Part shown: piece after piece, positions 5,601 through 55,400 of the stretch
Numbering within the stretch: position 1 is the first letter of the stretch
Layout: the number at the start of each line of letters is the position of its first letter
Assembly (NCBI RefSeq): GCF_021155765.1
Contig: NC_060116.1
Location: 17,486,584-17,550,583 of the forward strand
Direction: 5' to 3'
Source: Diprion similis
Lineage: Eukaryota > Arthropoda > Insecta > Hymenoptera > Diprionidae
Length of the DNA: 64,000 nt
Notes under the pieces: generated by a model
What the model saw: only the letters and a program-made list of their open reading frames with translations
Databases searched by the model: none
Told to the model about the DNA's origin: nothing
Program-made: the position numbers and the translations under genes

Positions 5601-7402
5601 CAGAAGTCCAAGGTTGGAACCGGCGGCATGGACTCCAAGGTGAACGCGGCGACGTGGGCGTTGGACCGTGGTGTTTCGGTGGTAATATGTAACGGGACGC
5701 AGGAGAAGGCGATCAAGAGTATAATGGCGGGTCGAAAAATCGGTACCTTTTTCACGGACACTAGCGGGCCGTCGGCGCCTGTTGAAGTAGTTGCGGAAAA
5801 CGGTAAGCCTTCTGCGGTCACTTTTAACTGCACGCTCGCAATGACTATTCTCCCTTTTCGTCACGTTTTCTTTCATATTATATTCTTCTTCCAGCCCGGA
5901 CCGGAAGTCGAGTCATGCAGTCTTTGCGGCCGGAGGAAAGAGCCAGCGCTATAAATACCCTGGCAAACCTGCTTGAGTCAAGGCAAGGTGACATATTGGA
6001 TGCGAATAACAAAGACTTGGAGGAGGCGCAAAAGTCCGGCCTGGCGAAACCTCTGCTCTCGCGATTGTCTCTGACACCATCGAAGCTGAAATCGCTGAGC
6101 GCCGGTCTGCGTCAGATTGCCGACAGCTCCCATCAGAACGTTGGTAGGGTTCTGAGGAGAACCAAGCTTGCCGATGGACTGGAATTGAAGCAGATCACCG
6201 TGCCTATTGGTGTTCTCCTGGTCATATTCGAGTCGCGACCTGACAGCTTACCGCAAGTCGCAGCCCTAGCGATGTCCAGTGCGAACGGGCTGCTGCTCAA
6301 AGGTGGAAAAGAGGCGGCTCACAGCAACAAGTACCTCATAGAACTCGTCAAGGAAGCTCTAAACACTGTCGGGGCGTCGAACGCGATTTCTCTGGTTTCA
6401 ACGCGCGAGGAAATAGGCGACCTTCTCTCCATGGAAAAGCATATTGATCTCATTATTCCCAGGGGAAGTTCTGAGCTTGTCAGAAGCATCCAGGAACAGT
6501 CTAAGCACATTCCAGTTCTAGGACACGCTGAAGGGATATGCCACGTGTACGTTGACAAAGATGCCGACATTGAGAAAGCGTTGAAGATAGTCCGTGACTC
6601 CAAGTGTGACTATCCGGCGGCCTGCAATGCTATGGAAACGCTCCTGTTACACGAGGAGCACTTAAATGGCACCTTCTTCGCTGATGTTTGCAACATGCTC
6701 CAAAAAGAAGGAGTGAGTAAACAAGTTCAATTCCCCAGAGGTTAATCTAAAGTCCATGATGTTTTTATTAGATTTTTCTAAAATCAACGATATACTTTTA
6801 GGTCAAGATCAATTCGGGACCGAGGCTTCGACAGCAGTTGACGTTTGGTCCACCAGCTGCAAAGAGCATGAAGACGGAATACGGTGCCCTCGAGTGCACT
6901 ATCGAGGTTGTTTCCGACTTGGAAGAAGCCATAAACCACATTCATCGATACGGCAGCAGTCACACCGAAGTTATCGTCACGGAGGACAGTCGGAGTGCGG
7001 CGCACTTCCAGCGTCAGGTTGATAGCGCCTGCGTCTTCCACAATGCCAGCAGCAGATTCGCCGATGGCTTCAGATTCGGTTTAGGCGCAGAGGTTCGTAA
7101 AAAAATAGACGCGCATACAAAAATTACATGTCCATGAATAACATGCATGTTTATGTCCATAAAATGTGCATATTTATTTGCATTGTCTTGATGGTTATCA
7201 TGCTGATGTTTAAGTACCATGCCTTTTTCCAATACAGGTCGGCATTTCCACGGCACGCATTCACGCTCGAGGCCCTGTCGGTGTCGACGGGCTTCTAACG
7301 ACGAAGTGGATCCTGCAAGGTGACGGTCATGCAGCCTCCGATTTTGCTGAAAACGGGACCCGAACGTTCTTGCACGAGTCACTTCCTCTTCAGGACGCAT
7401 GA
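2611..7402 (+). CDS. P5CS: Delta-1-pyrroline-5-carboxylate synthase (ALDH18A1 homologue), mitochondrial
   Basis: Six coding exons join in frame: 2611-2724, 3137-3464, 5155-5802, 5895-6712, 6802-7092 and 7238-7402, giving 787 aa (human ALDH18A1 has 795). The enzyme is bifunctional. The N-terminal glutamate 5-kinase phosphorylates glutamate, and the C-terminal gamma-glutamyl phosphate reductase uses NADPH to make glutamate semialdehyde/P5C for proline, ornithine and arginine synthesis. Residues 1-35 are Arg-rich without acidic residues, like a mitochondrial presequence. The kinase part shows [33 protein letters not shown] and IKDNDSLAA. The reductase part shows [39 protein letters not shown] and [12 protein letters not shown], with the catalytic Cys at about residue 607. 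The end ([22 protein letters not shown]) is typical. The ATG at 2611 was chosen because the frame upstream opens only at a TTG. The last donor (GTTCGT) is weak, but both flanks align with the family. Confidence 0.97.
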
Positions 7403-8499
7403 ATAATCTCGGGCCCTGATGATCCTCTTTACGTTGTGACTGCTGACCATTGGCGATATCGGCACAGCAACGCTTGGAATCTTAAGGGCTACATACGACG
7501 ATTCGTTGAATTGATGAAAATTTATCTTTTTAAAAAAAAGCGGTCGGACGGTACCTGATTGCTGTTTGTGCTCTTACAACTCTAATAAAATCACGAAAAT
7601 ATGTTTTGTGGAATGAAGTTGGAGAAATTGGAAAACAAAAACAGAGATTATGGTTTGAATTACATGAACATGTATGAATTTCGTTTAAAAGTGAGACATT
7701 TTTCGTTGTTTGATTCATATCTAGCACTTAAAGAGTTGTAGGTTATATGCTACTGCCACGAAAGCTAAGCCAAGTTTACAAACACCATGTCAGATTTTAA
7801 TGTATAAAATGGAGAGTCTACGTATTTTCTGTATGATAGGATATTGTAAAATAGCGTATCACATAGGTGTGTACAGTCTAGCAGTTAGTGAAAATTGCAG
7901 TATAGGTATTATAAGTAGGGAAAATATTGTATTTTTATAAGTAGGGATATTTACAACGAATGAGGCGTGTGCGCAATAATGGTACCAAAGATTTGCAACA
8001 GAGCATACATGAGATCACTCAATCATCTTATCAACTTCAAACAAATTTATTAATATTGTTCTGGTCCTAACGAAATAAACATGCGTTTGTTACATGCCTA
8101 TACTATGGACTCTATGATTCACCAACGATTACAGCTATGAAAAAATATTGCTTCAATACATCGTGGACCAATGTGTATTGCAGGAAATGCTTGAAATATC
8201 TATTCGTTGATTATTCAGCTGAATTTGCATGGGTGGATTTTTCTACGGTTATGACAGCATAGTCCATACGTGAAATATTGCCGTATGTACAGGGCCTTTC
8301 GTCTGATCTCTCAAAAATAATACGAGAGATATCGATACTTATTTCATTTCAATGCACTATATGTACAACGATTCTAGAAGGAAGAGGAGGAGTTGAATTA
8401 TTTTCTTGTATCTCTAAAAGCTACTCACAGAGCGTATAGATAAACTCTGTAGCATACGGAGCAAGCAGTGTGTGAATTAGGAGTTACAGATAAATAACG
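7403..8499. other. P5CS 3' UTR and flank
   Basis: AT-rich DNA following the P5CS stop. It contains a canonical AATAAA at 7584-7589 and a second AATAAA near 8075. No gene was recognised. The right-hand end merges into the first strongly diverged satellite monomer at about 8500. Confidence 0.6.
7584..7589 (+). promoter_or_regulatory. Candidate poly(A) signal of P5CS
   Basis: AATAAA, 182 bp beyond the P5CS stop codon. It is the first canonical hexamer downstream and would give a short 3' UTR. A later AATAAA near 8075 is an alternative. Confidence 0.5.
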
Positions 8500-9368
8500 T
8501 CAGATTTCCTTGGTAATTTCTCTGCTGTCAATCGTGAAGCTACTTTTTCAGCGTTTTCTGTATTCCTAGGGGTCCAATTAGTGTAGGAAGGGTCACACAA
8601 ATCTAGTCGGGGTGAAAAAAATTTTCGTCAAAAAAAGTGAGGCTTAACCCTTTGGATATTTGACTATAATTTCGACGATTTTGGAAAGTGCTGCAATCAA
8701 TTTTTGCGTGCCCTATTTCGACGTAATTTGGCGAGAGGAATCGATTAAGCGACGTCCCAATACGCTGCGAGCAATGGCTGAAAAGTTACGGCCTAAAAAC
8801 TCATGACTTTCATCGTCATTTCTCTGCTGCTGGTCCTACGCTCTTTTTGATGTGTTTTCTGAGTTCCTGGGGGTCGAATTACTCTAGAGATGGTCATACA
8901 AATCGATTCCGAGACGAGAAATTTTCGGCTCCAAAAATGACCAAAAAAGTAAGGCTTACCCCTTTGGTTTTTTGGCGAAAATTTCAAGGATTTTGAAAAG
9001 GGCTGCAATCAATTTTTGCAAGCCCTATTTCGACGTAATTTTGCGAGAGGAATCGTTTGAGCGCAGCCTCAATACGCTGCGAGCGATAGCTGAAAAGTTA
9101 CGGCCTAAAAACTCATGATTTTTATCGTCATTTCTCTGCTGCTGGTCCTACGCTTTTTTTGATGTGTTTTCTGAGTTCCTGAGGGTCGAATTACTCTAGA
9201 GATGGTCATACAAATCGATTCCGAGACGAGAAATTTTCGGCTCCGAAAATGACTAAAAAAGTAAGGCTTACCCCTTTGGATTTTTGGCGAAAATTTCGAC
9301 GATTTTGAAAAGAGCTGCAATCAATTTTTGCATGCCCTATTTCGACGTAATTTTGCGAGAGGAATCGA
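8500..9368. repeat. Diverged left edge of the satellite
   Basis: The leftmost monomer (about 8500-8800) is recognisable only through scattered blocks, for example the TTTCTCTGCTG, GTTTTCTG, TTCCTAGGGGTC and CTATTTCGACGTAATTT equivalents. The next two carry many substitutions, such as a GACGTCCCAATACG variant and CCTCAATACG in place of the core sequence. Divergence falls steeply towards 9369, the usual edge behaviour of arrays homogenised by unequal exchange. Confidence 0.9.
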
Positions 9369-12300
9369 TTAAGCGCAGTGCCAATACGCTGCGAGCGATA
9401 GCTGAAAAGTTACGGCCGAAAAAGTCATGATTTTCATCGTCATTTCTCTGCTGCTGGTCCTACGCTCTTTTTGATGTGTTTTCTGAGTTCCTGGGGGTCG
9501 AATTACTCTAGAGATGGTCATACAAATCGATTCCGAGACGAGAAATTTTCGGCTCCGAAAATGACCAAAAAAGTAAGGCTTACCCCTTTGGATTTTTGGC
9601 GAAAATTTCGACGATTTTGAAAAGAGCTGCAATCAATTTTTGCATGCCCTATTTCGACGTAATTTTGCGAGAGGAATCGATTAAGCGCAGTGCCAATACG
9701 CTGCGAGCGATAGCTGAAAAGTTACGGCCGAAAAAGTCATGATTTTCATCGTCATTTCTCTGCTGCTGGTCCTACGCTCTTTTTGATGTGTTTTCTGAGT
9801 TCCTGGGGGTCGAATTACTCTAGAGATGGTCATACAAATCGATTCCGAGACGAGAAATTTTCGGCTCCGAAAATGACCAAAAAAGTAAGGCTTACCCCTT
9901 TGGATTTTTGGCGAAAATTTCGACGATTTTGAAAAGAGCTGCAATCAATTTTTGCATGCCCTATTTCGACGTAATTTTGCGAGAGGAATCGATTAAGCGC
10001 AGTGCCAATACGCTGCGAGCGATAGCTGAAAAGTTACGGCCGAAAAAGTCATGATTTTCATCGTCATTTCTCTGCTGCTGGTCCTACGCTCTTTTTGATG
10101 TGTTTTCTGAGTTCCTGGGGGTCGAATTACTCTAGAGATGGTCATACAAATCGATTCCGAGACGAGAAATTTTCGGCTCCGAAAATGACCAAAAAAGTAA
10201 GGCTTACCCCTTTGGATTTTAGGCGAAAATTTCGACGATTTTGAAAAGAGCTGCAATCAATTTTTGCATGCCCTATTTCGACGTAATTTTGCGAGAGGAA
10301 TCGATTAAGCGCAGTGCCAATACGCTGCGAGCGATAGCTGAAAAGTTACGTCCGAAAAAGTCATGATTTTCATCGTCATTTCTCTGCTGCTGGTCCTACG
10401 CTCTTTTTGATGTGTTTTCTGAGTTCCTGGGGGTCGAATTACTCTAGAGATGGTCATACAAATCGATTCCGAGACGAGAAATTTTCGGCTCCGAAAATGA
10501 CCAAAAAAGTAAGGCTTACCCCTTTGGATTTTTGGCGAAAATTTCGACGATTTTGAAAAGAGCTGCAATCAATTTTTGCATGCCCTATTTCGACGTAATT
10601 TTGCGAGAGGAATCGATTAAGCGCAGTGCCAATACGCTGCGAGCGATAGCTGAAAAGTTACGGCCGAAAAAGTCATGATTTTCATCGTCATTTCTCTGCT
10701 GCTGGTCCTACGCTCTTTTTGATGTGTTTTCTGAGTTCCTGGGGGTCGAATTACTCTAAAGATGGTCATACAAATCGATTCCGAGACGAGAAATTTTCGG
10801 CTCCGAAAATGACCAAAAAAGTAAGGCTTACCCCTTTGGATTTTTGGCGAAAATTTCGACGATTTTGAAAAGAGCTGCAATCAATTTTTGCATGCCCTAT
10901 TTCGACGTAATTTTTCGAGAGGAATCGATTAAGCGCAGTGCCAATACGCTGCGAGCGATAGCTGAAAAGTTACGGCCGAAAAAGTCATGATTTTCATCGT
11001 CATTTCTCTGCTGCTGGTCCTACGCTCTTTTTGATGTGTTTTCTGAGTTCCTGGGGGTCGAATTACTCTAGAGATGGTCATACAAATCGATTCCGAGACG
11101 AGAAATTTTCGGCTCCGAAAATGACCAAAAAAGTAAGGCTTACCCCTTTGGATTTTTGGCGAAAATTTCGACGATTTTGAAAAGAGCTGCAATCAATTTT
11201 TGCATGCCCTATTTCGACGTAATTTTGCGAGAGGAATCGATTAAGCGCAGTGCCAATACGCTGCGAGCGATAGCTGAAAAGTTACGGCCGAAAAAGTCAT
11301 GATTTTCATCGTCATTTCTCTGCTGCTGGTCCTACGCTCTTTTTGATGTGTTTTCTGAGTTCCTGGGGGTCGAATTACTCTAGAGATGGTCATACAAATC
11401 GATTCCGAGACGAGAAATTTTCGGCTCCGAAAATGACCAAAAAAGTAAGGCTTACCCCTTTGGATTTTTGGCGAAAATTTCGACGATTTTGAAAAGAGCT
11501 GCAATCAATTTTTGCATGCCCTATTTCGACGTAATTTTGCGAGAGGAATCGATTAAGCGCAGTGCCAATACGCTGCGAGCGATAGCTGAAAAGTTACGGC
11601 CGAAAAAGTCATGATTTTCATCGTCATTTCACTGCTGCTGGTCCTACGCTCTTTTTGATGTGTTTTCTGAGTTCCTGGGGGTCGAATTACTCTAGAGATG
11701 GTCATACAAATCGATTCCGAGACGAGAAATTTTCGGCTCCGAAAATGACCAAAAAAGTAAGGCTTACCCCTTTGGATTTTTGGCGAAAATTTCGACGATT
11801 TTGAAAAGAGCTGCAATCAATTTTTGCATGCCCTATTTCGACGTAATTTTGCGAGAGGAATCGATTAAGCGCAGTGCCAATACGCTGCGAGCGATAGCTG
11901 AAAAGTTACGGCCGAAAAAGTCATGATTTTCATCGTCATTTCTCTGCTGCTGGTCCTACGCTCTTTTTGATGTGTTTTCTGAGTTCCTGGGGGTCGAATT
12001 ACTCTAGAGATGGTCATACAAATCGATTCCGAGACGAGAAATTTTCGGCTCCGAAAATGACCAAAAAAGTGAGGCTTACCCCTTTGGATTTTTGGCGAAA
12101 ATTCCGACGATTTTGAAAAGAGCTGCAATCAATTTTTGCATGCCCTATTTCGACGTAATTTTTCGAGAGGAATCGATTAAGCGCAGTGCCAATACGCTGC
12201 GAGCGATAGCTGAAAAGTTACGGCCGAAAAAGTCATGATTTTCATCGTCATTTCTCTGCTGCTGGTCCTACGCTCTTTTTGATGTGTTTTCTGAGTTCCT

Positions 12301-15300
12301 GGGGGTCGAATTACTCTAGAGATGGTCATACAAATCGATTCCGAGACGAGAAATTTTCGGCTCCGAAAATGACCAAAAAAGTAAGGCTTACCCCTTTGGA
12401 TTTTTGGCGAAAATTTCGACGATTTTGAAAAGAGCTGCAATCAATTTTTGCATGCCCTATTTCGACGTAATTTTGCGAGAGGAATCGATTAAGCGCAGTG
12501 CCAATACGCTGCGAGCGATAGCTGAAAAGTTACGGCCGAAAAAGTCATGATTTTCATCGTCATTTCACTGCTGCTGGTCCTACGCTCTTTTTGATGTGTT
12601 TTCTGAGTTCCTGGGGGTCGAATTACTCTAGAGATGGTCATACAAATCGATTCCGAGACGAGAAATTTTCGGCTCCGAAAATGACCAAAAAAGTAAGGCT
12701 TACCCCTTTGGATTTTTGGCGAAAATTTCGACGATTTTGAAAAGAGCTGCAATCAATTTTTGCATGCCCTATTTCGACGTAATTTTGCGAGAGGAATCGA
12801 TTAAGCGCAGTGCCAATACGCTGCGAGCGATAGCTGAAAAGTTACGGCCGAAAAAGTCATGATTTTCATCGTCATTTCTCTGCTGCTGGTCCTACGCTCT
12901 TTTTGATGTGTTTTCTGAGTTCCTGGGGGTCGAATTACTCTAGAGATGGTCACACAAATCGATTCCGAGACGAGAAATTTTCGGCTCCGAAAATGACCAA
13001 AAAAGTAAGGCTTACCCCTTTGGATTTTTGGCGAAAATTTCGACGATTTTGAAAAGAGCTGCAATCAATTTTTGCATGCCCTATTTCGACGTAATTTTGC
13101 GAGAGGAATCGATTAAGCGCAGTTCCAATACGCTGCGAGCGATAGCTGAAAAGTTACGGCCGAAAAAGTCATGATTTTCATCGTCATTTCTCTGCTGCTG
13201 GTCCTACGCTCTTTTTGATGTGTTTTCTGAGTTCCTGGGGGTCGAATTACTCTAGAGATGGTCATACAAATCGATTCCGAGACGAGAAATTTTCGGCTCC
13301 GAAAATGACCAAAAAAGTAAGGCTTACCCCTTTGGATTTTTGGCGAAAATTTCGACGATTTTGAAAAGAGCTGCAATCAATTTTTGCATGCCCCATTTCG
13401 ACGTAATTTTGCGAGAGGAATCGATTAAGCGCAGTGCCAATACGCTGCGAGCGATAGCTGAAAAGTTACGGCCGAAAAAGTCATGATTTTCATCGTCATT
13501 TCTCTGCTGCTGGTCCTACGCTCTTTTTGATGTGTTTTCTGAGTTCCTGGGGGTCGAATTACTCTAGAGATGGTCATACAAATCGATTCCGAGACGAGAA
13601 ATTTTCGGCTCCGAAAATGACCAAAAAAGTAAGGCTTACCCCTTTGGATTTTTGGCGAAAATTTCGACGATTTTGAAAAGAGCTGCAATCAATTTTTGCA
13701 TGCCCTATTTCGACGTAATTTTGCGAGAGGAATCGATTAAGCGCAGTGCCAATACGCTGCGAGCGATAGCTGAAAAGTTACGGCCGAAAAAGTCATGATT
13801 TTCATCGTCATTTCTCTGCTGCTGGTCCTACGCTCTTTTTGATGTGTTTTCTGAGTTCCTGGGGGTCGAATTACTCTAGAGATGGTCATACAAATCGATT
13901 CCGAGACGAGAAATTTTCGGCTCCGAAAATGACCAAAAAAGTAAGGCTTACCCCTTTGGATTTTTGGCGAAAATTTCGACGATTTTGAAAAGAGCTGCAA
14001 TCAATTTTTGCATGCCCTATTTCGACGTAATTTTGCGAGAGGAATCGATTAAGCGCAGTGCCAATACGCTGCGAGCGATAGCTGAAAAGTTACGGCCGAA
14101 AAAGTCATGATTTTCATCGTCATTTCTCTGCTGCTGGTCCTACGCTCTTTTTGATGTGTTTTCTGAGTTCCTGGGGGTCGAATTACTCTAGAGATGGTCA
14201 TACAAATCGATTCCGAGACGAGAAATTTTCGGCTCCGAAAATGACCAAAAAAGTAAGGCTTACCCCTTTGGATTTTTGGCGAAAATTTCGACGATTTTGA
14301 AAAGAGCTGCAATCAATTTTTGCATGCCCTATTTCGACGTAATTTTGCGAGAGGAATCGATTAAGCGCAGTGCCAATACGCTGCGAGCGATAGCTGAAAA
14401 GTTACGGCCGAAAAAGTCATGATTTTCATCGTCATTTCTCTGCTGCTGGTCCTACGCTCTTTTTGATGTGTTTTCTGAGTTCCTGGGGGTCGAATTACTC
14501 TAGAGATGGTCATACAAATCGATTCCGAGACGAGAAATTTTCGGCTCCGAAAATGACCAAAAAAGTAAGGCTTACCCCTTTGGATTTTTGGCGAAAATTT
14601 CGACGATTTTGAAAAGAGCTGCAATCAATTTTTGCATGCCCTATTTCGACGTAATTTTGCGAGAGGAATCGATTAAGCGCAGTGCCAATACGCTGCGAGC
14701 GATAGCTGAAAAGTTACGGCCGAAAAAGTCATGATTTTCATCGTCATTTCTCTGCTGCTGGTCCTACGCTCTTTTTGATGTGTTTTCTGAGTTCCTGGGG
14801 GTCGAATTACTCTAGAGATGGTCACACAAATCGATTCCGAGACGAGAAATTTTCGGCTCCGAAAATGACCAAAAAAGTAAGGCTTACCCCTTTGGATTTT
14901 TGGCGAAAATTTCGACGATTTTGAAAAGAGCTGCAATCAATTTTTGCATGCCCTATTTCGACGTAATTTTGCGAGAGGAATCGATTAAGCGCAGTTCCAA
15001 TACGCTGCGAGCGATAGCTGAAAAGTTACGGCCGAAAAAGTCATGATTTTCATCGTCATTTCTCTGCTGCTGGTCCTACGCTCTTTTTGATGTGTTTTCT
15101 GAGTTCCTGGGGGTCGAATTACTCTAGAGATGGTCATACAAATCGATTCCGAGACGAGAAATTTTCGGCTCCGAAAATGACCAAAAAAGTAAGGTTTACC
15201 CCTTTGGATTTTTGGCGAAAATTTCGACGATTTTGAAAAGAGCTGCAATCAATTTTTGCATGCCCTATTTCGACGTAATTTTGCGAGAGGAATCGATTAA

Positions 15301-15608
15301 GCGCAGTGCCAATACGCTGCGAGCGATAGCTGAAAAGTTACGGCCGAAAAAGTCATGATTTTCATCGTCATTTCTCTGCTGCTGGTCCTACGCTCTTTTT
15401 GATGTGTTTTCTGAGTTCCTGGGGGTCGAATTACTCTAGAGATGGTCATACAAATCGATTCCGAGACGAGAAATTTTCGGCTCCGAAAATGACCAAAAAA
15501 GTAAGGCTTACCCCTTTGGATTTTTGGCGAAAATTTCGACGATTTTGAAAAGAGCTGCAATCAATTTTTGCATGCCCTATTTCGACGTAATTTTGCGAGA
15601 GGAATCGA

Positions 15609-16856
15609 TTAAGCGCAGTGCCAATACGCTGCGAGCGATAGCTGAAAAGTTACGGCCGAAAAAGTCATGATTTTCATCGTCATTTCTTTGCTGCTGGTCC
15701 TACGCTCTTTTTGATGTGTTTTCTGAGTTCCTGGGGGTCGAATTACTCTAGAGATGGTCATACAAATCGATTCCGAGACGAGAAATTTTCGGCTCCGAAA
15801 ATGACCAAAAAAGTAAGGCTTACCCCTTTGGATTTTTGGCGAAAATTTCGACGATTTTGAAAAGAGCTGCAATCAATTTTTGCATGCCCCATTTCGACGT
15901 AATTTTGCGAGAGGAATCGATTAAGCGCAGTGCCAATACGCTGCGAGCGATAGCTGAAAAGTTACGGCCGAAAAAGTCATGATTTTCATCGTCATTTCTC
16001 TGCTGCTGGTCCTACGCTCTTTTTGATGTGTTTTCTGAGTTCCTGGGGGTCGAATTACTCTAGAGATGGTCATACAAATCGATTCCGAGACGAGAAATTT
16101 TCGGCTCCGAAAATGACCAAAAAAGTAAGGCTTACCCCTTTGGATTTTTGGCGAAAATTTCGACGATTTTGAAAAGAGCTGCAATCAATTTTTGCATGCC
16201 CTATTTCGACGTAATTTTGCGAGAGGAATCGATTAAGCGCAGTGCCAATACGCTGCGAGCGATAGCTGAAAAGTTACGGCCGAAAAAGTCATGATTTTCA
16301 TCGTCATTTCTCTGCTGCTGGTCCTACGCTCTTTTTGATGTGTTTTCTGAGTTCCTGGGGGTCGAATTACTCTAGAGATGGTCACACAAATCGATTCCGA
16401 GACGAGAAATTTTCGGCTCCGAAAATGACCAAAAAAGTAAGGCTTACCCATTTGGATTTTTGGCGAAAATTTCGACGATTTTGAAAAGAGCTGCAATCAA
16501 TTTTTGCATGCCCTATGTCGACGTAATTTTGCGAGAGGAATCGATTAAGCGCAGTGCCAATACGCTGCGAGCGATAGCTGAAAAGTTACGGCCGAAAAAG
16601 TCATGATTTTCATCGTCATTTCTCTGCTGCTGGTCCTACGCTCTTTTTGATGTGTTTTCTGAGTTCCTGGGGGTCGAATTACTCTAGAGATGGTCATACA
16701 AATCGATTCCGAGACGAGAAATTTTCGGCTCCGAAAATGACCAAAAAAGTAAGGCTTACCCCTTTGGATTTTTGGCGAAAATTTCGACGATTTTGAAAAG
16801 AGCTGCAATCAATTTTTGCATGCCCTATTTCGACGTAATTTTGCGAGAGAAATCGA
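15609..16856. repeat. Satellite four-monomer block, copy 1
   Basis: Four consecutive monomers carry a distinctive series of private changes: TTTCTTTGCTG plus GCCCCATTT in the first, none in the second, GGTCACAC plus ACCCATTTGG plus CTATGTCGAC in the third, and GAGAGAAATCG at the end of the fourth. The same series recurs at 23097-24344, 24 monomers (7488 bp) away. Confidence 0.85.
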
Positions 16857-19800
16857 TTAAGCGCAGTGCCAATACGCTGCGAGCGATAGCTGAAAAGTTA
16901 CGGCCGAAAAAGTCATGATTTTCATCGTCATTTCTCTGCTGCTGGTCCTACGCTCTTTTTGATGTGTTTTCTGAGTTCCTGGGGGTCGAATTACTCTAGA
17001 GATGGTCATACAAATCGATTCCGAGACGAGAAATTTTCGGCTCCGAAAATGACCAAAAAAGTGAGGCTTACCCCTTTGGATTTTTGGCGAAAATTCCGAC
17101 GATTTTGAAAAGAGCTGCAATCAATTTTTGCATGCCCTATTTCGACGTAATTTTTCGAGAGGAATCGATTAAGCGCAGTGCCAATACGCTGCGAGCGATA
17201 GCTGAAAAGTTACGGCCGAAAAAGTCATGATTTTCATCGTCATTTCTCTGCTGCTGGTCCTACGCTCTTTTTGATGTGTTTTCTGAGTTCCTGGGGGTCG
17301 AATTACTCTAGAGATGGTCATACAAATCGATTCCGAGACGAGAAATTTTCGGCTCCGAAAATGACCAAAAAAGTAAGGCTTACCCCTTTGGATTTTTGGC
17401 GAAAATTTCGACGATTTTGAAAAGAGCTGCAATCAATTTTTGCATGCCCTATTTCGACGTAATTTTGCGAGAGGAATCGATTAAGCGCAGTGCCAATACG
17501 CTGCGAGCGATAGCTGAAAAGTTACGGCCGAAAAAGTCATGATTTTCATCGTCATTTCACTGCTGCTGGTCCTACGCTCTTTTTGATGTGTTTTCTGAGT
17601 TCCTGGGGGTCGAATTACTCTAGAGATGGTCATACAAATCGATTCCGAGACGAGAAATTTTCGGCTCCGAAAATGACCAAAAAAGTAAGGCTTACCCCTT
17701 TGGATTTTTGGCGAAAATTTCGACGATTTTGAAAAGAGCTGCAATCAATTTTTGCATGCCCTATTTCGACGTAATTTTGCGAGAGGAATCGATTAAGCGC
17801 AGTGCCAATACGCTGCGAGCGATAGCTGAAAAGTTACGGCCGAAAAAGTCATGATTTTCATCGTCATTTCTCTGCTGCTGGTCCTACGCTCTTTTTGATG
17901 TGTTTTCTGAGTTCCTGGGGGTCGAATTACTCTAGAGATGGTCATACAAATCGATTCCGAGACGAGAAATTTTCGGCTCCGAAAATGACCAAAAAAGTAA
18001 GGCTTACCCCTTTGGATTTTTGGCGAAAATTTCGACGATTTTGAAAAGAGCTGCAATCAATTTTTGCATGCCCTATTTCGACGTAATTTTGCGAGAGGAA
18101 TCGATTAAGCGCAGTGCCAATACGCTGCGAGCGATAGCTGAAAAGTTACGGCCGAAAAAGTCATGATTTTCATCGTCATTTCTCTGCTGCTGGTCCTACG
18201 CTCTTTTTGATGTGTTTTCTGAGTTCCTGGGGGTCGAATTACTCTAGAGATGGTCATACAAATCGATTCCGAGACGAGAAATTTTCGGCTCCGAAAATGA
18301 CCAAAAAAGTAAGGCTTACCCCTTTGGATTTTTGGCGAAAATTTCGACGATTTTGAAAAGAGCTGCAATCAATTTTTGCATGCCCTATTTCGACGTAATT
18401 TTGCGAGAGGAATCGATTAAGCGCAGTGCCAATACGCTGCGAGCGATAGCTGAAAAGTTACGGCCGAAAAAGTCATGATTTTCATCGTCATTTCTCTGCT
18501 GCTGGTCCTACGCTCTTTTTGATGTGTTTTCTGAGTTCCTGGGGGTCGAATTACTCTAGAGATGGTCATACAAATCGATTCCGAGACGAGAAATTTTCGG
18601 CTCCGAAAATGACCAAAAAAGTAAGGCTTACCCCTTTGGATTTTTGGCGAAAATTTCGACGATTTTGAAAAGAGCTGCAATCAATTTTTGCATGCCCTAT
18701 TTCGACGTAATTTTGCGAGAGGAATCGATTAAGCGCAGTGCCAATACGCTGCGAGCGATAGCTGAAAAGTTACGGCCGAAAAAGTCATGATTTTCATCGT
18801 CATTTCTCTGCTGCTGGTCCTACGCTCTTTTTGATGTGTTTTCTGAGTTCCTGGGGGTCGAATTACTCTAGAGATGGTCATACAAATCGATTCCGAGACG
18901 AGAAATTTTCGGCTCCGAAAATGACCAAAAAAGTAAGGCTTACCCCTTTGGATTTTTGGCGAAAATTTCGACGATTTTGAAAAGAGCTGCAATCAATTTT
19001 TGCATGCCCTATTTCGACGTAATTTTGCGAGAGGAATCGATTAAGCGCAGTGCCAATACGCTGCGAGCGATAGCTGAAAAGTTACGGCCGAAAAAGTCAT
19101 GATTTTCATCGTCATTTCTCTGCTGCTGGTCCTACGCTCTTTTTGATGTGTTTTCTGAGTTCCTGGGGGTCGAATTACTCTAGAGATGGTCATACAAATC
19201 GATTCCGAGACGAGAAATTTTCGGCTCCGAAAATGACCAAAAAAGTAAGGCTTACCCCTTTGGATTTTTGGCGAAAATTTCGACGATTTTGAAAAGAGCT
19301 GCAATCAATTTTTGCATGCCCTATTTCGACGTAATTTTGCGAGAGGAATCGATTAAGCGCAGTGCCAATACGCTGCGAGCGATAGCTGAAAAGTTACGGC
19401 CGAAAAAGTCATGATTTTCATCGTCATTTCTCTGCTGCTGGTCCTACGCTCTTTTTGATGTGTTTTCTGAGTTCCTGGGGGTCGAATTACTCTAGAGATG
19501 GTCATACAAATCGATTCCGAGACGAGAAATTTTCGGCTCCGAAAATGACCAAAAAAGTAAGGCTTACCCCTTTGGATTTTTGGCGAAAATTTCGACGATT
19601 TTGAAAAGAGCTGCAATCAATTTTTGCATGCCCTATTTCGACGTAATTTTGCGAGAGGAATCGATTAAGCGCAGTGCCAATACGCTGCGAGCGATAGCTG
19701 AAAAGTTACGGCCGAAAAAGTCATGATTTTCATCGTCATTTCTCTGCTGCTGGTCCTACGCTCTTTTTGATGTGTTTTCTGAGTTCCTGGGGGTCGAATT

Positions 19801-22800
19801 ACTCTAGAGATGGTCACACAAATCGATTCCGAGACGAGAAATTTTCGGCTCCGAAAATGACCAAAAAAGTAAGGCTTACCCCTTTGGATTTTTGGCGAAA
19901 ATTTCGACGATTTTGAAAAGAGCTGCAATCAATTTTTGCATGCCCTATTTCGACGTAATTTTGCGAGAGGAATCGATTAAGCGCAGTTCCAATACGCTGC
20001 GAGCGATAGCTGAAAAGTTACGGCCGAAAAAGTCATGATTTTCATCGTCATTTCTCTGCTGCTGGTCCTACGCTCTTTTTGATGTGTTTTCTGAGTTCCT
20101 GGGGGTCGAATTACTCTAGAGATGGTCATACAAATCGATTCCGAGACGAGAAATTTTCGGCTCCGAAAATGACCAAAAAAGTAAGGCTTACCCCTTTGGA
20201 TTTTTGGCGAAAATTTCGACGATTTTGAAAAGAGCTGCAATCAATTTTTGCATGCCCTATTTCGACGTAATTTTGCGAGAGGAATCGATTAAGCGCAGTG
20301 CCAATACGCTGCGAGCGATAGCTGAAAAGTTACGGCCGAAAAAGTCATGATTTTCATCGTCATTTCTTTGCTGCTGGTCCTACGCTCTTTTTGATGTGTT
20401 TTCTGAGTTCCTGGGGGTCGAATTACTCTAGAGATGGTCATACAAATCGATTCCGAGACGAGAAATTTTCGGCTCCGAAAATGACCAAAAAAGTAAGGCT
20501 TACCCCTTTGGATTTTTGGCGAAAATTTCGACGATTTTGAAAAGAGCTGCAATCAATTTTTGCATGCCCCATTTCGACGTAATTTTGCGAGAGGAATCGA
20601 TTAAGCGCAGTGCCAATACGCTGCGAGCGATAGCTGAAAAGTTACGGCCGAAAAAGTCATGATTTTCATCGTCATTTCTCTGCTGCTGGTCCTACGCTCT
20701 TTTTGATGTGTTTTCTGAGTTCCTGGGGGTCGAATTACTCTAGAGATGGTCATACAAATCGATTCCGAGACGAGAAATTTTCGGCTCCGAAAATGACCAA
20801 AAAAGTAAGGCTTACCCCTTTGGATTTTTGGCGAAAATTTCGACGATTTTGAAAAGAGCTGCAATCAATTTTTGCATGCCCTATTTCGACGTAATTTTGC
20901 GAGAGGAATCGATTAAGCGCAGTGCCAATACGCTGCGAGCGATAGCTGAAAAGTTACGGCCGAAAAAGTCATGATTTTCATCGTCATTTCTCTGCTGCTG
21001 GTCCTACGCTCTTTTTGATGTGTTTTCTGAGTTCCTGGGGGTCGAATTACTCTAGAGATGGTCACACAAATCGATTCCGAGACGAGAAATTTTCGGCTCC
21101 GAAAATGACCAAAAAAGTAAGGCTTACCCCTTTGGATTTTTGGCGAAAATTTCGACGATTTTGAAAAGAGCTGCAATCAATTTTTGCATGCCCTATTTCG
21201 ACGTAATTTTGCGAGAGGAATCGATTAAGCGCAGTTCCAATACGCTGCGAGCGATAGCTGAAAAGTTACGGCCGAAAAAGTCATGATTTTCATCGTCATT
21301 TCTCTGCTGCTGGTCCTACGCTCTTTTTGATGTGTTTTCTGAGTTCCTGGGGGTCGAATTACTCTAGAGATGGTCATACAAATCGATTCCGAGACGAGAA
21401 ATTTTCGGCTCCGAAAATGACCAAAAAAGTAAGGCTTACCCCTTTGGATTTTTGGCGAAAATTTCGACGATTTTGAAAAGAGCTGCAATCAATTTTTGCA
21501 TGCCCTATTTCGACGTAATTTTGCGAGAGGAATCGATTAAGCGCAGTGCCAATACGCTGCGAGCGATAGCTGAAAAGTTACGGCCGAAAAAGTCATGATT
21601 TTCATCGTCATTTCTCTGCTGCTGGTCCTACGCTCTTTTTGATGTGTTTTCTGAGTTCCTGGGGGTCGAATTACTCTAGAGATGGTCATACAAATCGATT
21701 CCGAGACGAGAAATTTTCGGCTCCGAAAATGACCAAAAAAGTAAGGCTTACCCCTTTGGATTTTTGGCGAAAATTTCGACGATTTTGAAAAGAGCTGCAA
21801 TCAATTTTTGCATGCCCTATTTCGACGTAATTTTGCGAGAGGAATCGATTAAGCGCAGTGCCAATACGCTGCGAGCGATAGCTGAAAAGTTACGGCCGAA
21901 AAAGTCATGATTTTCATCGTCATTTCTCTGCTGCTGGTCCTACGCTCTTTTTGATGTGTTTTCTGAGTTCCTGGGGGTCGAATTACTCTAGAGATGGTCA
22001 TACAAATCGATTCCGAGACGAGAAATTTTCGGCTCCGAAAATGACCAAAAAAGTAAGGCTTACCCCTTTGGATTTTTGGCGAAAATTTCGACGATTTTGA
22101 AAAGAGCTGCAATCAATTTTTGCATGCCCTATTTCGACGTAATTTTGCGAGAGGAATCGATTAAGCGCAGTGCCAATACGCTGCGAGCGATAGCTGAAAA
22201 GTTACGGCCGAAAAAGTCATGATTTTCATCGTCATTTCTCTGCTGCTGGTCCTACGCTCTTTTTGATGTGTTTTCTGAGTTCCTGGGGGTCGAATTACTC
22301 TAGAGATGGTCATACAAATCGATTCCGAGACGAGAAATTTTCGGCTCCGAAAATGACCAAAAAAGTAAGGCTTACCCCTTTGGATTTTTGGCGAAAATTT
22401 CGACGATTTTGAAAAGAGCTGCAATCAATTTTTGCATGCCCTATTTCGACGTAATTTTGCGAGAGGAATCGATTAAGCGCAGTGCCAATACGCTGCGAGC
22501 GATAGCTGAAAAGTTACGGCCGAAAAAGTCATGATTTTCATCGTCATTTCTCTGCTGCTGGTCCTACGCTCTTTTTGATGTGTTTTCTGAGTTCCTGGGG
22601 GTCGAATTACTCTAGAGATGGTCACACAAATCGATTCCGAGACGAGAAATTTTCGGCTCCGAAAATGACCAAAAAAGTAAGGCTTACCCCTTTGGATTTT
22701 TGGCGAAAATTTCGACGATTTTGAAAAGAGCTGCAATCAATTTTTGCATGCCCTATTTCGACGTAATTTTGCGAGAGGAATCGATTAAGCGCAGTTCCAA

Positions 22801-23096
22801 TACGCTGCGAGCGATAGCTGAAAAGTTACGGCCGAAAAAGTCATGATTTTCATCGTCATTTCTCTGCTGCTGGTCCTACGCTCTTTTTGATGTGTTTTCT
22901 GAGTTCCTGGGGGTCGAATTACTCTAGAGATGGTCATACAAATCGATTCCGAGACGAGAAATTTTCGGCTCCGAAAATGACCAAAAAAGTAAGGCTTACC
23001 CCTTTGGATTTTTGGCGAAAATTTCGACGATTTTGAAAAGAGCTGCAATCAATTTTTGCATGCCCTATTTCGACGTAATTTTGCGAGAGGAATCGA

Positions 23097-24344
23097 TTAA
23101 GCGCAGTGCCAATACGCTGCGAGCGATAGCTGAAAAGTTACGGCCGAAAAAGTCATGATTTTCATCGTCATTTCTTTGCTGCTGGTCCTACGCTCTTTTT
23201 GATGTGTTTTCTGAGTTCCTGGGGGTCGAATTACTCTAGAGATGGTCATACAAATCGATTCCGAGACGAGAAATTTTCGGCTCCGAAAATGACCAAAAAA
23301 GTAAGGCTTACCCCTTTGGATTTTTGGCGAAAATTTCGACGATTTTGAAAAGAGCTGCAATCAATTTTTGCATGCCCCATTTCGACGTAATTTTGCGAGA
23401 GGAATCGATTAAGCGCAGTGCCAATACGCTGCGAGCGATAGCTGAAAAGTTACGGCCGAAAAAGTCATGATTTTCATCGTCATTTCTCTGCTGCTGGTCC
23501 TACGCTCTTTTTGATGTGTTTTCTGAGTTCCTGGGGGTCGAATTACTCTAGAGATGGTCATACAAATCGATTCCGAGACGAGAAATTTTCGGCTCCGAAA
23601 ATGACCAAAAAAGTAAGGCTTACCCCTTTGGATTTTTGGCGAAAATTTCGACGATTTTGAAAAGAGCTGCAATCAATTTTTGCATGCCCTATTTCGACGT
23701 AATTTTGCGAGAGGAATCGATTAAGCGCAGTGCCAATACGCTGCGAGCGATAGCTGAAAAGTTACGGCCGAAAAAGTCATGATTTTCATCGTCATTTCTC
23801 TGCTGCTGGTCCTACGCTCTTTTTGATGTGTTTTCTGAGTTCCTGGGGGTCGAATTACTCTAGAGATGGTCACACAAATCGATTCCGAGACGAGAAATTT
23901 TCGGCTCCGAAAATGACCAAAAAAGTAAGGCTTACCCATTTGGATTTTTGGCGAAAATTTCGACGATTTTGAAAAGAGCTGCAATCAATTTTTGCATGCC
24001 CTATGTCGACGTAATTTTGCGAGAGGAATCGATTAAGCGCAGTGCCAATACGCTGCGAGCGATAGCTGAAAAGTTACGGCCGAAAAAGTCATGATTTTCA
24101 TCGTCATTTCTCTGCTGCTGGTCCTACGCTCTTTTTGATGTGTTTTCTGAGTTCCTGGGGGTCGAATTACTCTAGAGATGGTCATACAAATCGATTCCGA
24201 GACGAGAAATTTTCGGCTCCGAAAATGACCAAAAAAGTAAGGCTTACCCCTTTGGATTTTTGGCGAAAATTTCGACGATTTTGAAAAGAGCTGCAATCAA
24301 TTTTTGCATGCCCTATTTCGACGTAATTTTGCGAGAGAAATCGA
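23097..24344. repeat. Satellite four-monomer block, copy 2
   Basis: Repeats the variant series of 15609-16856 in the same order and spacing. The two blocks therefore most likely descend from a single multi-monomer duplication rather than independent point mutation. Immediately to its right, homology to the core drops, marking the array edge. Confidence 0.85.
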
Positions 24345-25610
24345 TTAAGCGCAGTGCCAATACGCTGCGAGCGATAGCTGAAAAGTTACGGCCGAAAAAG
24401 TCATGATTTTCATCGTCATTTCTCTGCTGCTGGTCCTACGCTCTTTTTGATGTGTTTTCTGAGTTCCTGGGGGTCGAATTACTCCAGAGATGGTCATACG
24501 AATCGATTCCGAGACGAGAAATTTTCGGCTCTGAAAATGACCAAAAAAGTAAGGCTTACCCCTTTGGAATTTTCGCGAAAATTTCGACGATTTTGAAAAG
24601 AGCTGCAATCAATTTTTGCATGCCCTATTTCGACGTAATTTTGCGAGAGGAATCGATTGAGCGCAGTCCCAATACGCTGCGAGCGATGGCTGAAAAGTTA
24701 CGGCCTAAAAAGTCATGATTTTCGACGTCATTTCTCTGCTGCTGGTCCTACGCTCTTTTTGATGTGTTTTCTGAGTTCCTGGGGGTCGAATTACTCTCGA
24801 GATGGTCATACAAATCGATTCCGAGACGAGAAATTTTCGGCTCCGAAAATGACCAAAAAAGTAAGGCTTACCCCTTTGGATTTTTGGCGAAAATTTCGAC
24901 GATTTTGAAAAGAGCTGCAATCAATTTTTGCATGCCCTATTTCGACGTAATTTTGCGAGAGGAATCGATTAAGCGCAGTGCCAATACGCTGCGAGCGATA
25001 GCTGAAAAGTTACGGCCTAAAAACTCATGATTTTCATCGTCATTTCTCTGCTGCTGGTCCTACGCTCTTTTCGATGTGTTTTCTGAGTTTCTGGGGGTCG
25101 AATTACTCTAGAGATGGTCATACAAATCGATTTCGAGACGAGAAATTTTCGGCTCCGAAAATGACCAAAAAAGTAAGGCTTACCCCTTTGGAATTTTGGC
25201 GAAAATTTCGACGATTTTGAAAAAAGCTGCAATCGATTTCTGCATGCCCTATTTCGACGTAATTTTGCGAGAGGAATCGATTGAGCGCAGTCCCAAAACG
25301 CTGCGAGCGATGGCTGAGAAGTTACGGCCGAAAAAGTCATGATTTTCATCGTCATTTCTCTGCTGCTGGTCCTACGCTCTTTTTGATGTGTTTTCTGAGT
25401 TCCTGGGGGTCGAATTACTCTAGAGATGGTCATACGAACTAATTCGGGGACAAAAATTTCCTGGTCTCAAAAAGTAAGGCGTTCGCAATTTTAATGAAAA
25501 TTTTGATGACTTTCAAAAGTGCTGGAAGCAATTATTTGGTGCACTGGATGGACGTAATTTTGCGAGAGGAATGGACTCGCGATTGCGTCCGAATACGCTG
25601 CCAGTTACGG
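24345..25610. repeat. Diverged right edge of the satellite
   Basis: Monomers from 24345 onward accumulate changes (GAATTTTCGCG, CTCCAGAGATGG, TTCGACGTCATTT, TTTTCGATGTG, CCCAAAACGC). The final partial copy, from about 25430 to 25610, keeps only blocks such as GGACGTAATTTTGCGAGAGGAA and AATACGCTGCC. This mirrors the left edge. Confidence 0.9.
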
Positions 25611-26666
25611 AATCTCTCTTCTTCATTTCGTACATTTTTTTACATGTCTTAATACCAATCCCAGAAATGGTAATTCTTTGAATACACATGTAATCGAGAT
25701 TCTCCGACCTATACAACCACGTAGGTTCCTTTGCGCGGCATTTAGGCGTTGCGCTCAATCGATAAAAATATCAAAATATTGACGATTGGTGATCAGATAC
25801 GTGGATGGAACGGGTTATTCCCGTTAATCCCTTAAGACGTAAGAAGCTCGAAAAAAACCTGCTTGGTCCGCTGTTCACAGCGAGTCGAGATTGTGCGCTA
25901 CGAATCTTTCCTGTAAAATTACGTCGATACACAGTCGGAAAGAATTGATTTCAGCTGTTTTCAAAATCCGCTACAAATGGACTTAAACATTTAAAGCGGT
26001 TAGCCGTCGTTGTTTTGCAATTTTCTCGAGGTCACAAACTTCGCTACTCAGAATTAATTTTCAGAAGCTTTCTCTCACAAATCGAACTCTGCGGACTTCC
26101 ATAAAGGCATCTAGAACATTGTTGGTTCAATAGCTGAGAAAATACAATTAAACTATTCCGCTTATCGTCACCAACTTTAAAATTTGATCTCAACAATTGG
26201 TGTTCGTTTGTTATCTTTTTATCCTGCAAATCCTGCTGATACGGCGTTATAGAGCTCGATTGATTCTAGCGTTTTCTGAAAAATTGCACGTGTTTGATTT
26301 TAGAAATGACGCGTGTCTCCGGTTTCGAGTTGAGGTTTTTGCTATAGTCTGTCGCGCACGTTTGATCGCCTACAACTCTGGTTACCAAATTATAAAGTTT
26401 TCCATCTCAGAAAATAGTGTTCAGCGACAAATGTATACTCACCACGTCGTTTGATACTGTAAATCATACAAGATACACCACTCAGGTTGTTACTGGTACA
26501 ACAGTACAACAATGAAACAATGTTTCATTACGAATCGTTAACCATCACAGATTTGATTCGCGTAACAATATATGGTAGCCCTAGTTTCTCCACTCAGTCG
26601 AATCTACTTATAGCAGGAGAAACGGTGACTGAAAATTTTCACTAAAAATGATGAGCATTTACAGTA
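25611..26666. other. Intergenic DNA between satellite and PRPF4
   Basis: AT-rich sequence with two short unrelated open frames (26044-26229 on -, 26197-26454 on +) that resemble nothing I recognise. No RNA gene or mobile element was identified. It separates the satellite from the PRPF4 3' end by only about 1.1 kb. Confidence 0.5.
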
Positions 26667-26672
26667 TTTATT
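26667..26672 (-). promoter_or_regulatory. Candidate poly(A) signal of PRPF4
   Basis: TTTATT on the + strand reads AATAAA on the - strand, 21 bases after the PRPF4 stop. A second TTTATT abuts the stop codon at 26687-26692. Either would give a very short 3' UTR. Confidence 0.45.
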
Positions 26673-26692
26673 GACAACATTTCGGTTTTATT

Positions 26693-28797
26693 TCACATAT
26701 TTTCAGGTGCCCAGAGCTTAAATGTTCTATCATACGAGCTAGTAACTATAAATTTATGGTCAGGGGAGATGTCGCAGCACATTACTTTGCCATCATGTCC
26801 GGGCAATGTCTTCAATGGTTGCCACGTTTTATTGGACCAAATTTTTGCGGTATTATCATACGACGCTGTAACCAAATACTGCCCTTCGGTACGCTGATAC
26901 TTCACGTCTGATAATAAATTGGTGTGTGCTGGTATTGTGTAAATACACGATCTTTTTCTCAAGTCCCATATTTTGCACGAATTATCCTCGCTTGCAGTAG
27001 CCAGGTGAAAACCATTAGGCGAAAAATCAACTCCGAAAATAGATTTCAAGTGACCCTCCATAAACATAATACAGCGGCCTGTTCTCAGGTCCCAAACTCT
27101 GCCAAAGGAATCGTGGCCTCCCGTAGCAACAACGCTGCCATCACATTGGAAGCTGAAAAAAGAAACCTTTTTTTCAATCAACCATTGTTTCTGCCACTCC
27201 ATCAAAAAGCACTGACAAGATTTATTCAAGAATAGTAAAACTATATTATAGTATTAACCTTATGCAATGTACTGCCTTGGCGTGACCCTCTTGATGCAAA
27301 ACTTCAGCTTGTTGTTCTAGGTCCCACAGTCGCCAAGAAGCATCGTGGCAACAGGTTCCTAAAAAACGACCCGATGGATGAAATGCAATCCTTGATACTC
27401 TGTGGGGCTCATGGCCTTCAACTTCTGCTAATGGCTCTTCACTGTTGCCTCCACCCCACAGCTTGACACTTCCTGGGAGAACATGAAGACAGAGATGAAA
27501 CTATAAATAAACTAGCTGAGCAGAAGACCAGTCATAATGCGATCTTATAATTTCAGAAGCTGAGCATCCACTTCATAAGAATGAGCAAGTCAATCATTGA
27601 CTGATAATATCACCGATTTGAGAATACATAGATGAATTTATTCATGCAAATGTGCAATACTTATTCATGCAAATAAGCAGTATAATTTCAATGTGCGACA
27701 GCCTTCCTGATGCATCAGGAGTCCTGGTGAACCATAGAAATATCTTTTGTCTAATTGCAAAATAGATGCTTTTCTGCGTGGGTCATCAACACATGTCCTT
27801 CACCAGCCTAATAATTACCATCTGAAGCACAGCTTGCTAGAACGCATGTAGGTGATGCATTTTCCCCCAGCATCTCTTCAGAGAGTGTTGCTTTTGGATG
27901 GAAAACAATACAGCTTACATTACAGGTATGACCCCTGAGAGTTCTGGCAATTGAGCACTCAGGTACAGACCAAATTTTGCAAAGCCCAGACCAGGAAGAT
28001 GTTGCCAATAATTTTGAATTCGGACTGAATTGGCAAAATGATATGGGGCGGCTGTCTCCAATTTGGGAGCAATAAATGCTCAAAGCTTGTAATTTTTTCA
28101 GGAGTTCCTGTCGACGTGCCGTACGTGTAGCCCCTGGAAGCTCTAATTCTTCTCTGGATTTTTCAAGCCGGTCTCTGGCCCTGGGAAGTGAATATGCTAA
28201 AAAAAAAACGGAACTGTAATATAATGTAAACCATTAATTTTGAGTCAATACTTCTTGATACTTACATGCTATCCACGAGCGGGCAATTTGAAGAGAATCT
28301 GGTCCTTCGTGGTACCAAGTTGATTCCGCATCTCGTTCTGTCTGATGCGATGGCCGCTCCTCGTCCTCATGCTTTTTTTTGATAGCGTCTTCACCTAAGC
28401 TGGCCAATAATTCTCTCAGCCTAGACCTTCTGTCTGCTGGGCCTTCTCCAAACAAACAAATTGGTTCCCCCAGTTGGCGCAAGTTTTTTTTTACTTCTGA
28501 ATCATCCGTCGAAACATTAATCTGTCTGGCTTTTTTTCTCCGCTCAAATTCTTCAAGCAGAGCCTGCCTATCTTTAGACATCTCATCTTCAAGTTCCATG
28601 TATTCATTTGATATGTGTACATTGCCCAGGGCAGAACCTGTTGTCGGTGTATCTGATGGACTCCTATTATGATCTCTCTCTTCATCCGAAGATTCTGCAG
28701 ATGTAGCTGTGAGTCGGGCACGTTCAGCTTCCTCAAGGGATCCATAATGCACGGTTTTTTGCTTTTTCACATAAACCAGATCCTCGTCGTCAGACAT
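26693..28797 (-). CDS. PRPF4: U4/U6 small nuclear ribonucleoprotein Prp4 (WD40 protein)
   Basis: Four exons on the - strand join in frame: 28797-28266, 28196-27819, 27472-27259 and 27152-26693, giving 527 aa (human PRPF4 has 522). The protein is a U4/U6 di-snRNP component that binds PRPF3 and the cyclophilin PPIH, and it is needed for tri-snRNP assembly in the nucleus. Residues 1-85 are charged and low-complexity, with the family's [13 protein letters not shown]. Residues about 90-135 form the SFM/PRP4-like motif ([34 protein letters not shown]). [18 protein letters not shown] then spans to the first splice junction. From about residue 225, seven WD40 repeats follow, including [63 protein letters not shown] and the terminal [13 protein letters not shown]. 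The ATG at 28797 starts [14 protein letters not shown]. Donors are GTAAGT, GTAATT and GTTAAT. The gene is convergent with P5CS across the satellite. Confidence 0.97.
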
Positions 28798-28880
28798 TTC
28801 GATTATATTTAAGTATAAAAATTTACATATACGTTATTTTTTTAAATATTTCACAAACTTCGGCTGCAAACGTTTATAAT

Positions 28881-33261: not shown

Positions 33262-33808
33262 CGACCCACACCGTGATAAAGTGACATAAATAATTCGTTG
33301 TTATTATTATTCCTTGCACCATTGTTATTATTATTCAAAAATACGTAATAATGTTTGTTTAGACGGGATTAAACAACATTTTTACTAGCGTGACTACTCA
33401 CCGCGTTCAAGGTACATCCTTCCATTATCACAATTAATTATGGCTCAGTGGATGTTTCACTGTTCGAAGAAAACATAGCATGCGTAAATAGAGTTGCCAA
33501 TCACTATGTATGTACGTAAATCGGTAGGCCCAGAAAATGCTTTTTCACATCACAACCGAGTCAAGTTCGTGAGACATTCTCTACTTTGGATATACACATA
33601 CATTGCATGTACAAACACAAGCATACATACATCACATATACCCTACTCGTGTGTGATTGAAGCGCCACGCTCGTAGCTGCCATCAGCTGCCACAGTGTAA
33701 GGAGTTAGGAACGTGAGCTTGTTATTCTCTTCATAGCTTGCTATATGCTCTATGGTCTATGGCTCAGTCGCAGATTTTCGAACGAACCAATAGAAAAGTT
33801 ACGCCAGT

Positions 33809-47269: not shown

Positions 47270-55400
<8,131 letters not shown>

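Follow-up and report, generated by a model that had tools for sequence, protein, structure and literature searches.

How dispersed satellites originate, and why gene-rich DNA contains them, has yet to be explained. Euchromatic satellites are common, according to the available portion of one account (PMC10048060), and growth of satellites inside inverted-repeat transposons is already known, as the accessible parts of the literature describe for Tetris and for miniature inverted-repeat transposable elements (MITEs) of Xenopus. Internal tandem repeats of Tetris, in Drosophila virilis, expanded into long homogeneous arrays reaching 66 copies, as stated in the available text of that report (PMC4079207). 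Here we describe an array of a 312-bp repeat in a 64-kb stretch of the sawfly Diprion similis genome (C12:17486584-17550583 in an assembly of 269 Mb and 60 contigs), referred to below as the window. The array is very probably the expanded interior of an old, non-coding copy of a transposon with terminal inverted repeats (TIRs), either a MITE or a foldback-like element. Three adjoining features of the window bear on this reading:

8009..8453, plus strand: X1, a dispersed transposon block directly 5' of the array (profile match of 386 bits over 8009-8623)
8454..25610, plus strand: the array, 55.0 units of 312 bp, at monomer coordinate 181 at its start and 198 at its end
25614..25764, minus strand: right TIR, immediately 3' of the array (window-held-out profile, E 2.9e-12)

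Results

The window array. Tandem Repeats Finder (TRF) placed a tandem array at 8631-25435, with a 312-bp period, 53.9 copies, 99% matches and 0% indels, and a profile hidden Markov model (HMM) lengthened it to 8454-25610, every unit lying on the plus strand. Both programs agree with the original prediction, made from the letters of the window, of about 55 head-to-tail copies with a 312-bp period, and the coordinates it gave (8500-25610) were correct within 50 bases. Diversity was counted in 48 core monomers of the 53 that were phased, two at the left edge and three at the right edge being omitted. These core monomers show 1.58 differences per pair (pi 0.5%) and fall into 16 variants, 5 of them singletons; 23 of the 48 are identical to the consensus. 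Identity between one unit and the next declines gradually toward both edges of the array. Rare variants are shared by units 16 apart (11/27, 12/28) and 24 apart (25/49, 26/50), a recurrence that we read as the trace left by duplication of multi-unit segments.

In the window, the array takes the place that the monomer has in the element, with X1 on one side and the right inverted repeat on the other. On the left, relatives of the window's flank adjoin other arrays, and the passage from X1 into the monomer falls at nearly the same monomer coordinate in each: 181 in the window, 180 in L010, 181 in L013, 180 in L014, 180 in L036 and 179 in L042 (L numbers denote stretches fetched from the assembly, of which 20, each 10 kb long, were chosen at places matching the monomer). 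The X1 profile was built with the window as a member, so its 386-bit match is not independent. The window X1 is 76-78% identical to four relatives, whereas the core array is 99.5% alike, which points to an old insertion and a recent last homogenization.

On the right, the inverted repeat begins 4 bases past the array and continues weakly to about 25865. The held-out profile found one significant place in the 64 kb, with the next match at E 6.9 and the best match to the reversed sequence at E 1; L034, L014 and L016 were likewise recovered by inverted-repeat profiles when each was held out. Reverse-complemented right flanks align with the outer part of X1 elsewhere (window against L010, E 1e-9), and the window's right flank, reverse complemented, matches the right flank of L014 (E 4e-14). 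An alignment puts the length of the inverted repeat at about 240 bp. By eye, a short imperfect direct repeat, AATACGC...AGC, is present at both monomer borders (coordinates ~180-195).

The transposon family. The order of parts in the element is left inverted repeat, X1, monomer or monomers, sometimes with a second block (X2), and right inverted repeat, and copies occur without a monomer, with one monomer, and with arrays. L016, L049 and L050 have both inverted repeats and no monomer match. L014 has one monomer (coordinates 180-194) after X1, with the right inverted repeat directly next to it and no left repeat found; the borders of this single monomer nearly equal those of the window array (181-198). 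L052 consists of a left inverted repeat, X1, one monomer and X2. An inverted piece of X1 follows the monomer or X1 in L014, L034 and L016. The family is non-coding: in stretches of three copies the longest open frames are 114 (L014), 59 (L016) and 70 (L036, left part only) amino acids (aa), so that no coding capacity was found in these stretches.

X2 is about 420 bp long and sits between monomer coordinates 214-233 and 226-228 in L031, L032, L042 and L043; its position in L034 is looser (282 and 230). It may be part of a longer form of the element or a nested insertion. A variant of X2 occurs at L043:5400-5720, next to an array of a different, 191-bp satellite, and at 15 more places (C2 5.6-10.1 Mb, C4 11.5-14.0 Mb and C7 8.87 Mb). 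These copies are full length, 74-100% identical and located in inner chromosome regions, and the variant looks like a later amplification there.

Termini and the intervals between them. A 32-base terminus matched the genome 20 times and a 21-base terminus 72 times (each at ≤3 mismatches, control 0). Neighboring termini within 60 kb of one another formed 11 pairs, and all 11 face inward. No other orientation was seen, and random placement on 20-Mb contigs (2000 trials) gave a mean of 0.4 inward pairs and a maximum of 3. Together with the two inverted repeats of L016, L049 and L050, these pairs are the paired termini of a MITE or foldback type. The distance from terminus to terminus spans 93 bp to 40.2 kb.

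Six of the 11 pairs were inspected, and the monomer is present in four. In the widest pair, at 5529934/5570159 on C3 (40.2 kb), each end of the interval holds a monomer array, the L036 array running from about 5.531 to 5.537 Mb, where the stretch ends, and monomer matches lying at 5566750-5569358; this pair is known from its ends, the middle ~30 kb falling outside the sequence read. As a test of prediction, 161-base probes were taken inside the 10.3-, 12.9- and 9.3-kb pairs, and all three proved to be monomer (E 8e-34 to 2e-55). The probe sites were new, but L052 had already shown monomer near the left end of the 10.3-kb pair.

Comparison with transposon superfamilies. Hallmarks of PIF/Harbinger elements are a 3-bp TWA target duplication and a related transposase. 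The duplications seen here are TAA (C8 25.57 Mb), TAT (C4 23.68 Mb) and AAA (L050), once each, and no superfamily assignment was made from them; the other five copies examined lack an identical 3-bp duplication. L049 has GTGTC at both ends with a one-base offset. Helitrons and Helentrons have no long terminal inverted repeats, and the ~240-bp inverted repeats rule out membership in that group.

Genome-wide abundance. A 37-base word of the monomer matched 5,217 places in the genome at ≤2 mismatches (control 0). The conserved 24-base core, at ≤3 mismatches, matched 43,683 places (22,583 and 21,100 by strand; control 0), which at 312 bases each amounts to 13.6 Mb, or 5.07% of the assembly. Among the matches listed there are at least 62 clusters on 12 contigs, spread along the chromosomes rather than gathered into one major cluster per chromosome as expected of a centromeric satellite; a few are single distant matches and not arrays. 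All 20 fetched 10-kb stretches contain arrays, with periods of 304, 311 or 312. Mean pairwise identity inside a locus is 0.904-0.986 over 21 loci, the window array being the highest, and identity between the consensuses of these loci is 0.80-0.96; monomer subfamilies are common to different chromosomes. The 312-bp repeat is thus abundant, non-coding, head-to-tail and homogenized, as satellite DNA is. The search of the monomer against the assembly that the original prediction had proposed therefore returns a general satellite at many loci, and the alternative raised with it, a local expansion at a single locus, is wrong. Distant relatives of the monomer are mostly 66-73% identical and spaced 311, 314 or 654 bases apart; the 654-bp spacing is found at C11:11.115-11.155 Mb and is possibly a two-unit repeat.

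Genes beside the arrays. Twenty open reading frames (ORFs) in array flanks, from 15 loci, were submitted to Pfam, shorter and other ORFs being excluded. Host domains scoring above the curated cutoff turned up in six of the 20, at 5 loci (thioredoxin, TrmO, WD40, GCN5L1, PH and TRAM/LAG1/CLN8). The nearest domain-bearing gene has its 5' end toward the array at L030, L034, L037 and L044 and its 3' end toward it at L038; since the 5' end faces the array at four of five loci, these arrays lie near genes and not specially between convergent 3' ends. A 1,223-aa open frame adjoins the array at L029:1-3669 (minus strand), with no Pfam family above cutoff. In the window itself, the array has these neighbors:

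3104..7402, plus strand: P5CS (exons), convergent left neighbor (four ORFs with Pfam AA_kinase and Aldedh, of which the last is below cutoff)
25867..26277, minus strand: monomer relic, inverted and decayed (profile match of 76 bits)
26693..28833, minus strand: PRPF4, convergent right neighbor (Pfam PRP4 at 1.2e-15, and WD40)

The P5CS stop codon ends at 7402, with AATAAA at 7584, and lies 1.05 kb from the array; the PRPF4 stop is at about 26693, with polyadenylation signals at 26667 and 26687, and lies 1.08 kb away. The AATAAA-type signals of both genes fall outside the array. The original prediction of a euchromatic-looking satellite about 1.1 kb from each of two convergent genes is borne out by the Pfam domains of P5CS and PRPF4 and by the measured gaps. 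An Rfam scan of 7000-27000 gave no match, and a tRNA search of the whole window found none. Farther from the array, a zinc-finger gene at 53736-55400 (plus strand) with C2H2 zinc-finger Pfam matches and long Q/H tracts is, as we take it by eye, EGR/stripe-like, and 32965-33300 (minus strand) holds a gene with an NRBF2 MIT domain.

Symmetry of the monomer. No open frame runs through the array, and the consensus has stops in all six frames, which rules out a coding array. The monomer of the window array has an imperfect dyad at coordinates 16-107. Its local inverted repeat has a score of 45, and the best of 100 shuffles reached 40; for the whole monomer, 16 of 300 shuffles attained the dyad score. 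Across the 21 locus consensuses, 97.6% of cells preserve the predicted hairpin, with 0 compensatory changes (0-2 in slid versions), and the folding z is -1.0 on the plus strand and -2.0 on the minus strand, where 1 of 100 shuffles did as well. Peaks of the autocorrelation, computed with no shuffle control, lie at 149 and 163, and the ~156-bp halves align with each other at local scores of 16-22. The dyad is a real but unexplained symmetry and supports no claim of function.

Chromosome setting and a second satellite. C12 is 17,816,656 bases long, which leaves about 304 kb between the window array and the contig end. TTAGG repeats occur in abundance, and among the matches listed they stand at the start of C1. 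The 191-bp satellite has 3,784 matches at ≤3 mismatches (control 0), which among the matches listed include C1 8.15, 9.93 and 10.36 Mb of 18.1 Mb. It also forms mid-chromosome arrays, 98% homogeneous, at L030:5463-10000 and L043:5945-10000 (C4, 13.4 Mb). It does not match the 312-bp monomer profile at E 10 and was not found in the window by TRF; C12 positions beyond the window are not among the matches listed.

Discussion

We propose that transposition long ago would have carried the monomer to many sites, that unequal exchange or replication-based duplication would then have enlarged the copies in place, and that the local arrays were probably homogenized recently. Several observations weigh against reading the array as an expanded transposon interior. 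The left inverted repeat is not recognizable in the window copy. Among the sampled array edges, X1, X2 or an inverted repeat lies within 1 kb at 4 of the 11 on the left and at 7 of the 12 on the right; the X1 counts are biased because an X1 match had led to the choice of L036 and L042, and the choice of loci was independent of X2. In L052 the join of X1 and monomer is at coordinate 74 and not 180. No partner lies inside 60 kb of 50 of the 72 termini, two of the 11 pairs, at 93 and 132 bp, lack the length to accommodate both inverted repeats in full, and identical 3-bp target duplications flank just 3 of 8 copies. The monomer is absent from the L050 pair (0.6 kb, C11) and from the first 1.4 kb of a 2.9-kb pair on C3 (L051, read in part). 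The monomer may also have been captured by a transposon instead of having begun in one.

One alternative is a dispersed satellite of the ordinary kind that travels by way of circles or recombination, with the TIR element as an independent MITE whose insertions frequently fall in or next to arrays. Many array edges do lack any transposon part, and X2 breaks monomers near coordinate 228 at several loci, as an insertion would. Such chance landings sit poorly with the fixed X1-monomer junctions and with a single-monomer copy whose borders nearly equal those of the window array, and neither the inward orientation of 11 of 11 terminus pairs nor the identity of three of three blind probes as monomer fits them; we regard this explanation as unlikely. 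An artefact of assembly, with the array collapsed or misplaced, is harder still to entertain: our assessment was made from the assembly alone, yet the edges are gradual, variants are resolved, and matching parts of the element stand on both sides.

The original prediction had further suggested an insulator or transcription-termination zone, or a pericentromeric location. A functional zone between P5CS and PRPF4 would suit the position of the array 1.05 kb from each convergent gene, and a dyad that beats 100 of 100 shuffles in local score and is kept in 21 locus consensuses. It has against it the polyadenylation signals outside the array, the lack of an Rfam match, a dyad without compensatory change, and gene 5' ends facing the array at four of the five other loci with a recognized gene; we consider it very improbable. 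A pericentromeric or otherwise heterochromatic satellite is hardly credible here. Two of the 20 fetched arrays do adjoin the 191-bp satellite in mid-chromosome, but the window array is found among genes, close to the end of a contig, and the unrelated 191-bp repeat, present in the middle of C1, would be the better centromere candidate of the two. What stands of the original prediction is a general satellite beside genes; its functional and pericentromeric readings find no support here, and the transposon carrier had gone unnoticed there. We think that the array has no role in termination or insulation at this locus, where it would be neutral or selfish DNA outside both transcripts; an array next to two genes need not imply function.

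Beyond the window, expansion of a transposon interior may account for the satellite that dominates this genome (at least 13.6 Mb). By a narrow preference, we suggest that one TIR family seeded hundreds of sites with the 312-bp module, and that its copies keep becoming satellites of 10-40 kb in place, among genes and still bracketed by TIRs. What look like intermediates survive together here: some arrays sit within paired ends separated by about 10 kb and, in one instance, by 40 kb. If this is true, the succession of empty element, single monomer and giant array could be read in one chromosome-scale assembly, and one genome could discriminate growth in place from spread by circles.

In the literature searched we recognized no paper on the 312-bp family, and short words of the monomer occurred in none. 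Exact patterns had no match in viral_contigs or genome_contigs, where records of the window's own genome may be missing, and we do not claim the sequence as undescribed. Measured against known systems, what is unusual here is the scale, the arrays between paired termini many kilobases apart, and the gene-side setting. The last recalls the euchromatic satellites near genes of Tribolium castaneum, as available parts of two reports describe them (PMC3411249, PMC5844308), a likeness of description and not of sequence or carrier. In the Cg_HINE Helentrons of the Pacific oyster, too, satellite arrays are dispersed inside non-autonomous mobile elements; going by the available text (PMC7492417), those have Helentron ends and arrays mostly of ≤5 units, the longest of 29, whereas the arrays here are many kilobases long and the inverted repeats are long. 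The miDNA4/Xstir MITEs of Xenopus have an interior monomer that is single or arrayed and, in miDNA4, flanked by short direct repeats, according to the accessible part of a review (PMC12628747); the direct repeat at our monomer borders appears to resemble the microhomology proposed for miDNA4. That element belongs to Tc1/mariner and to another host, and the likeness is one of description, not sequence, with no superfamily assigned here. Like Tetris and TIR-220, as presented in the available text (PMC4079207), the element is non-autonomous, with long inverted repeats and internal tandem repeats that became long homogeneous arrays. Tetris repeats lie inside the inverted repeats, whereas the monomer here is an interior module between X1 and the right inverted repeat, and the element does not belong to Tetris. 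By the same account Tetris amplified mainly in beta-heterochromatin and its repeats make up 0.08% of the assembly, whereas here several arrays stand beside genes and the repeat reaches about 5%.

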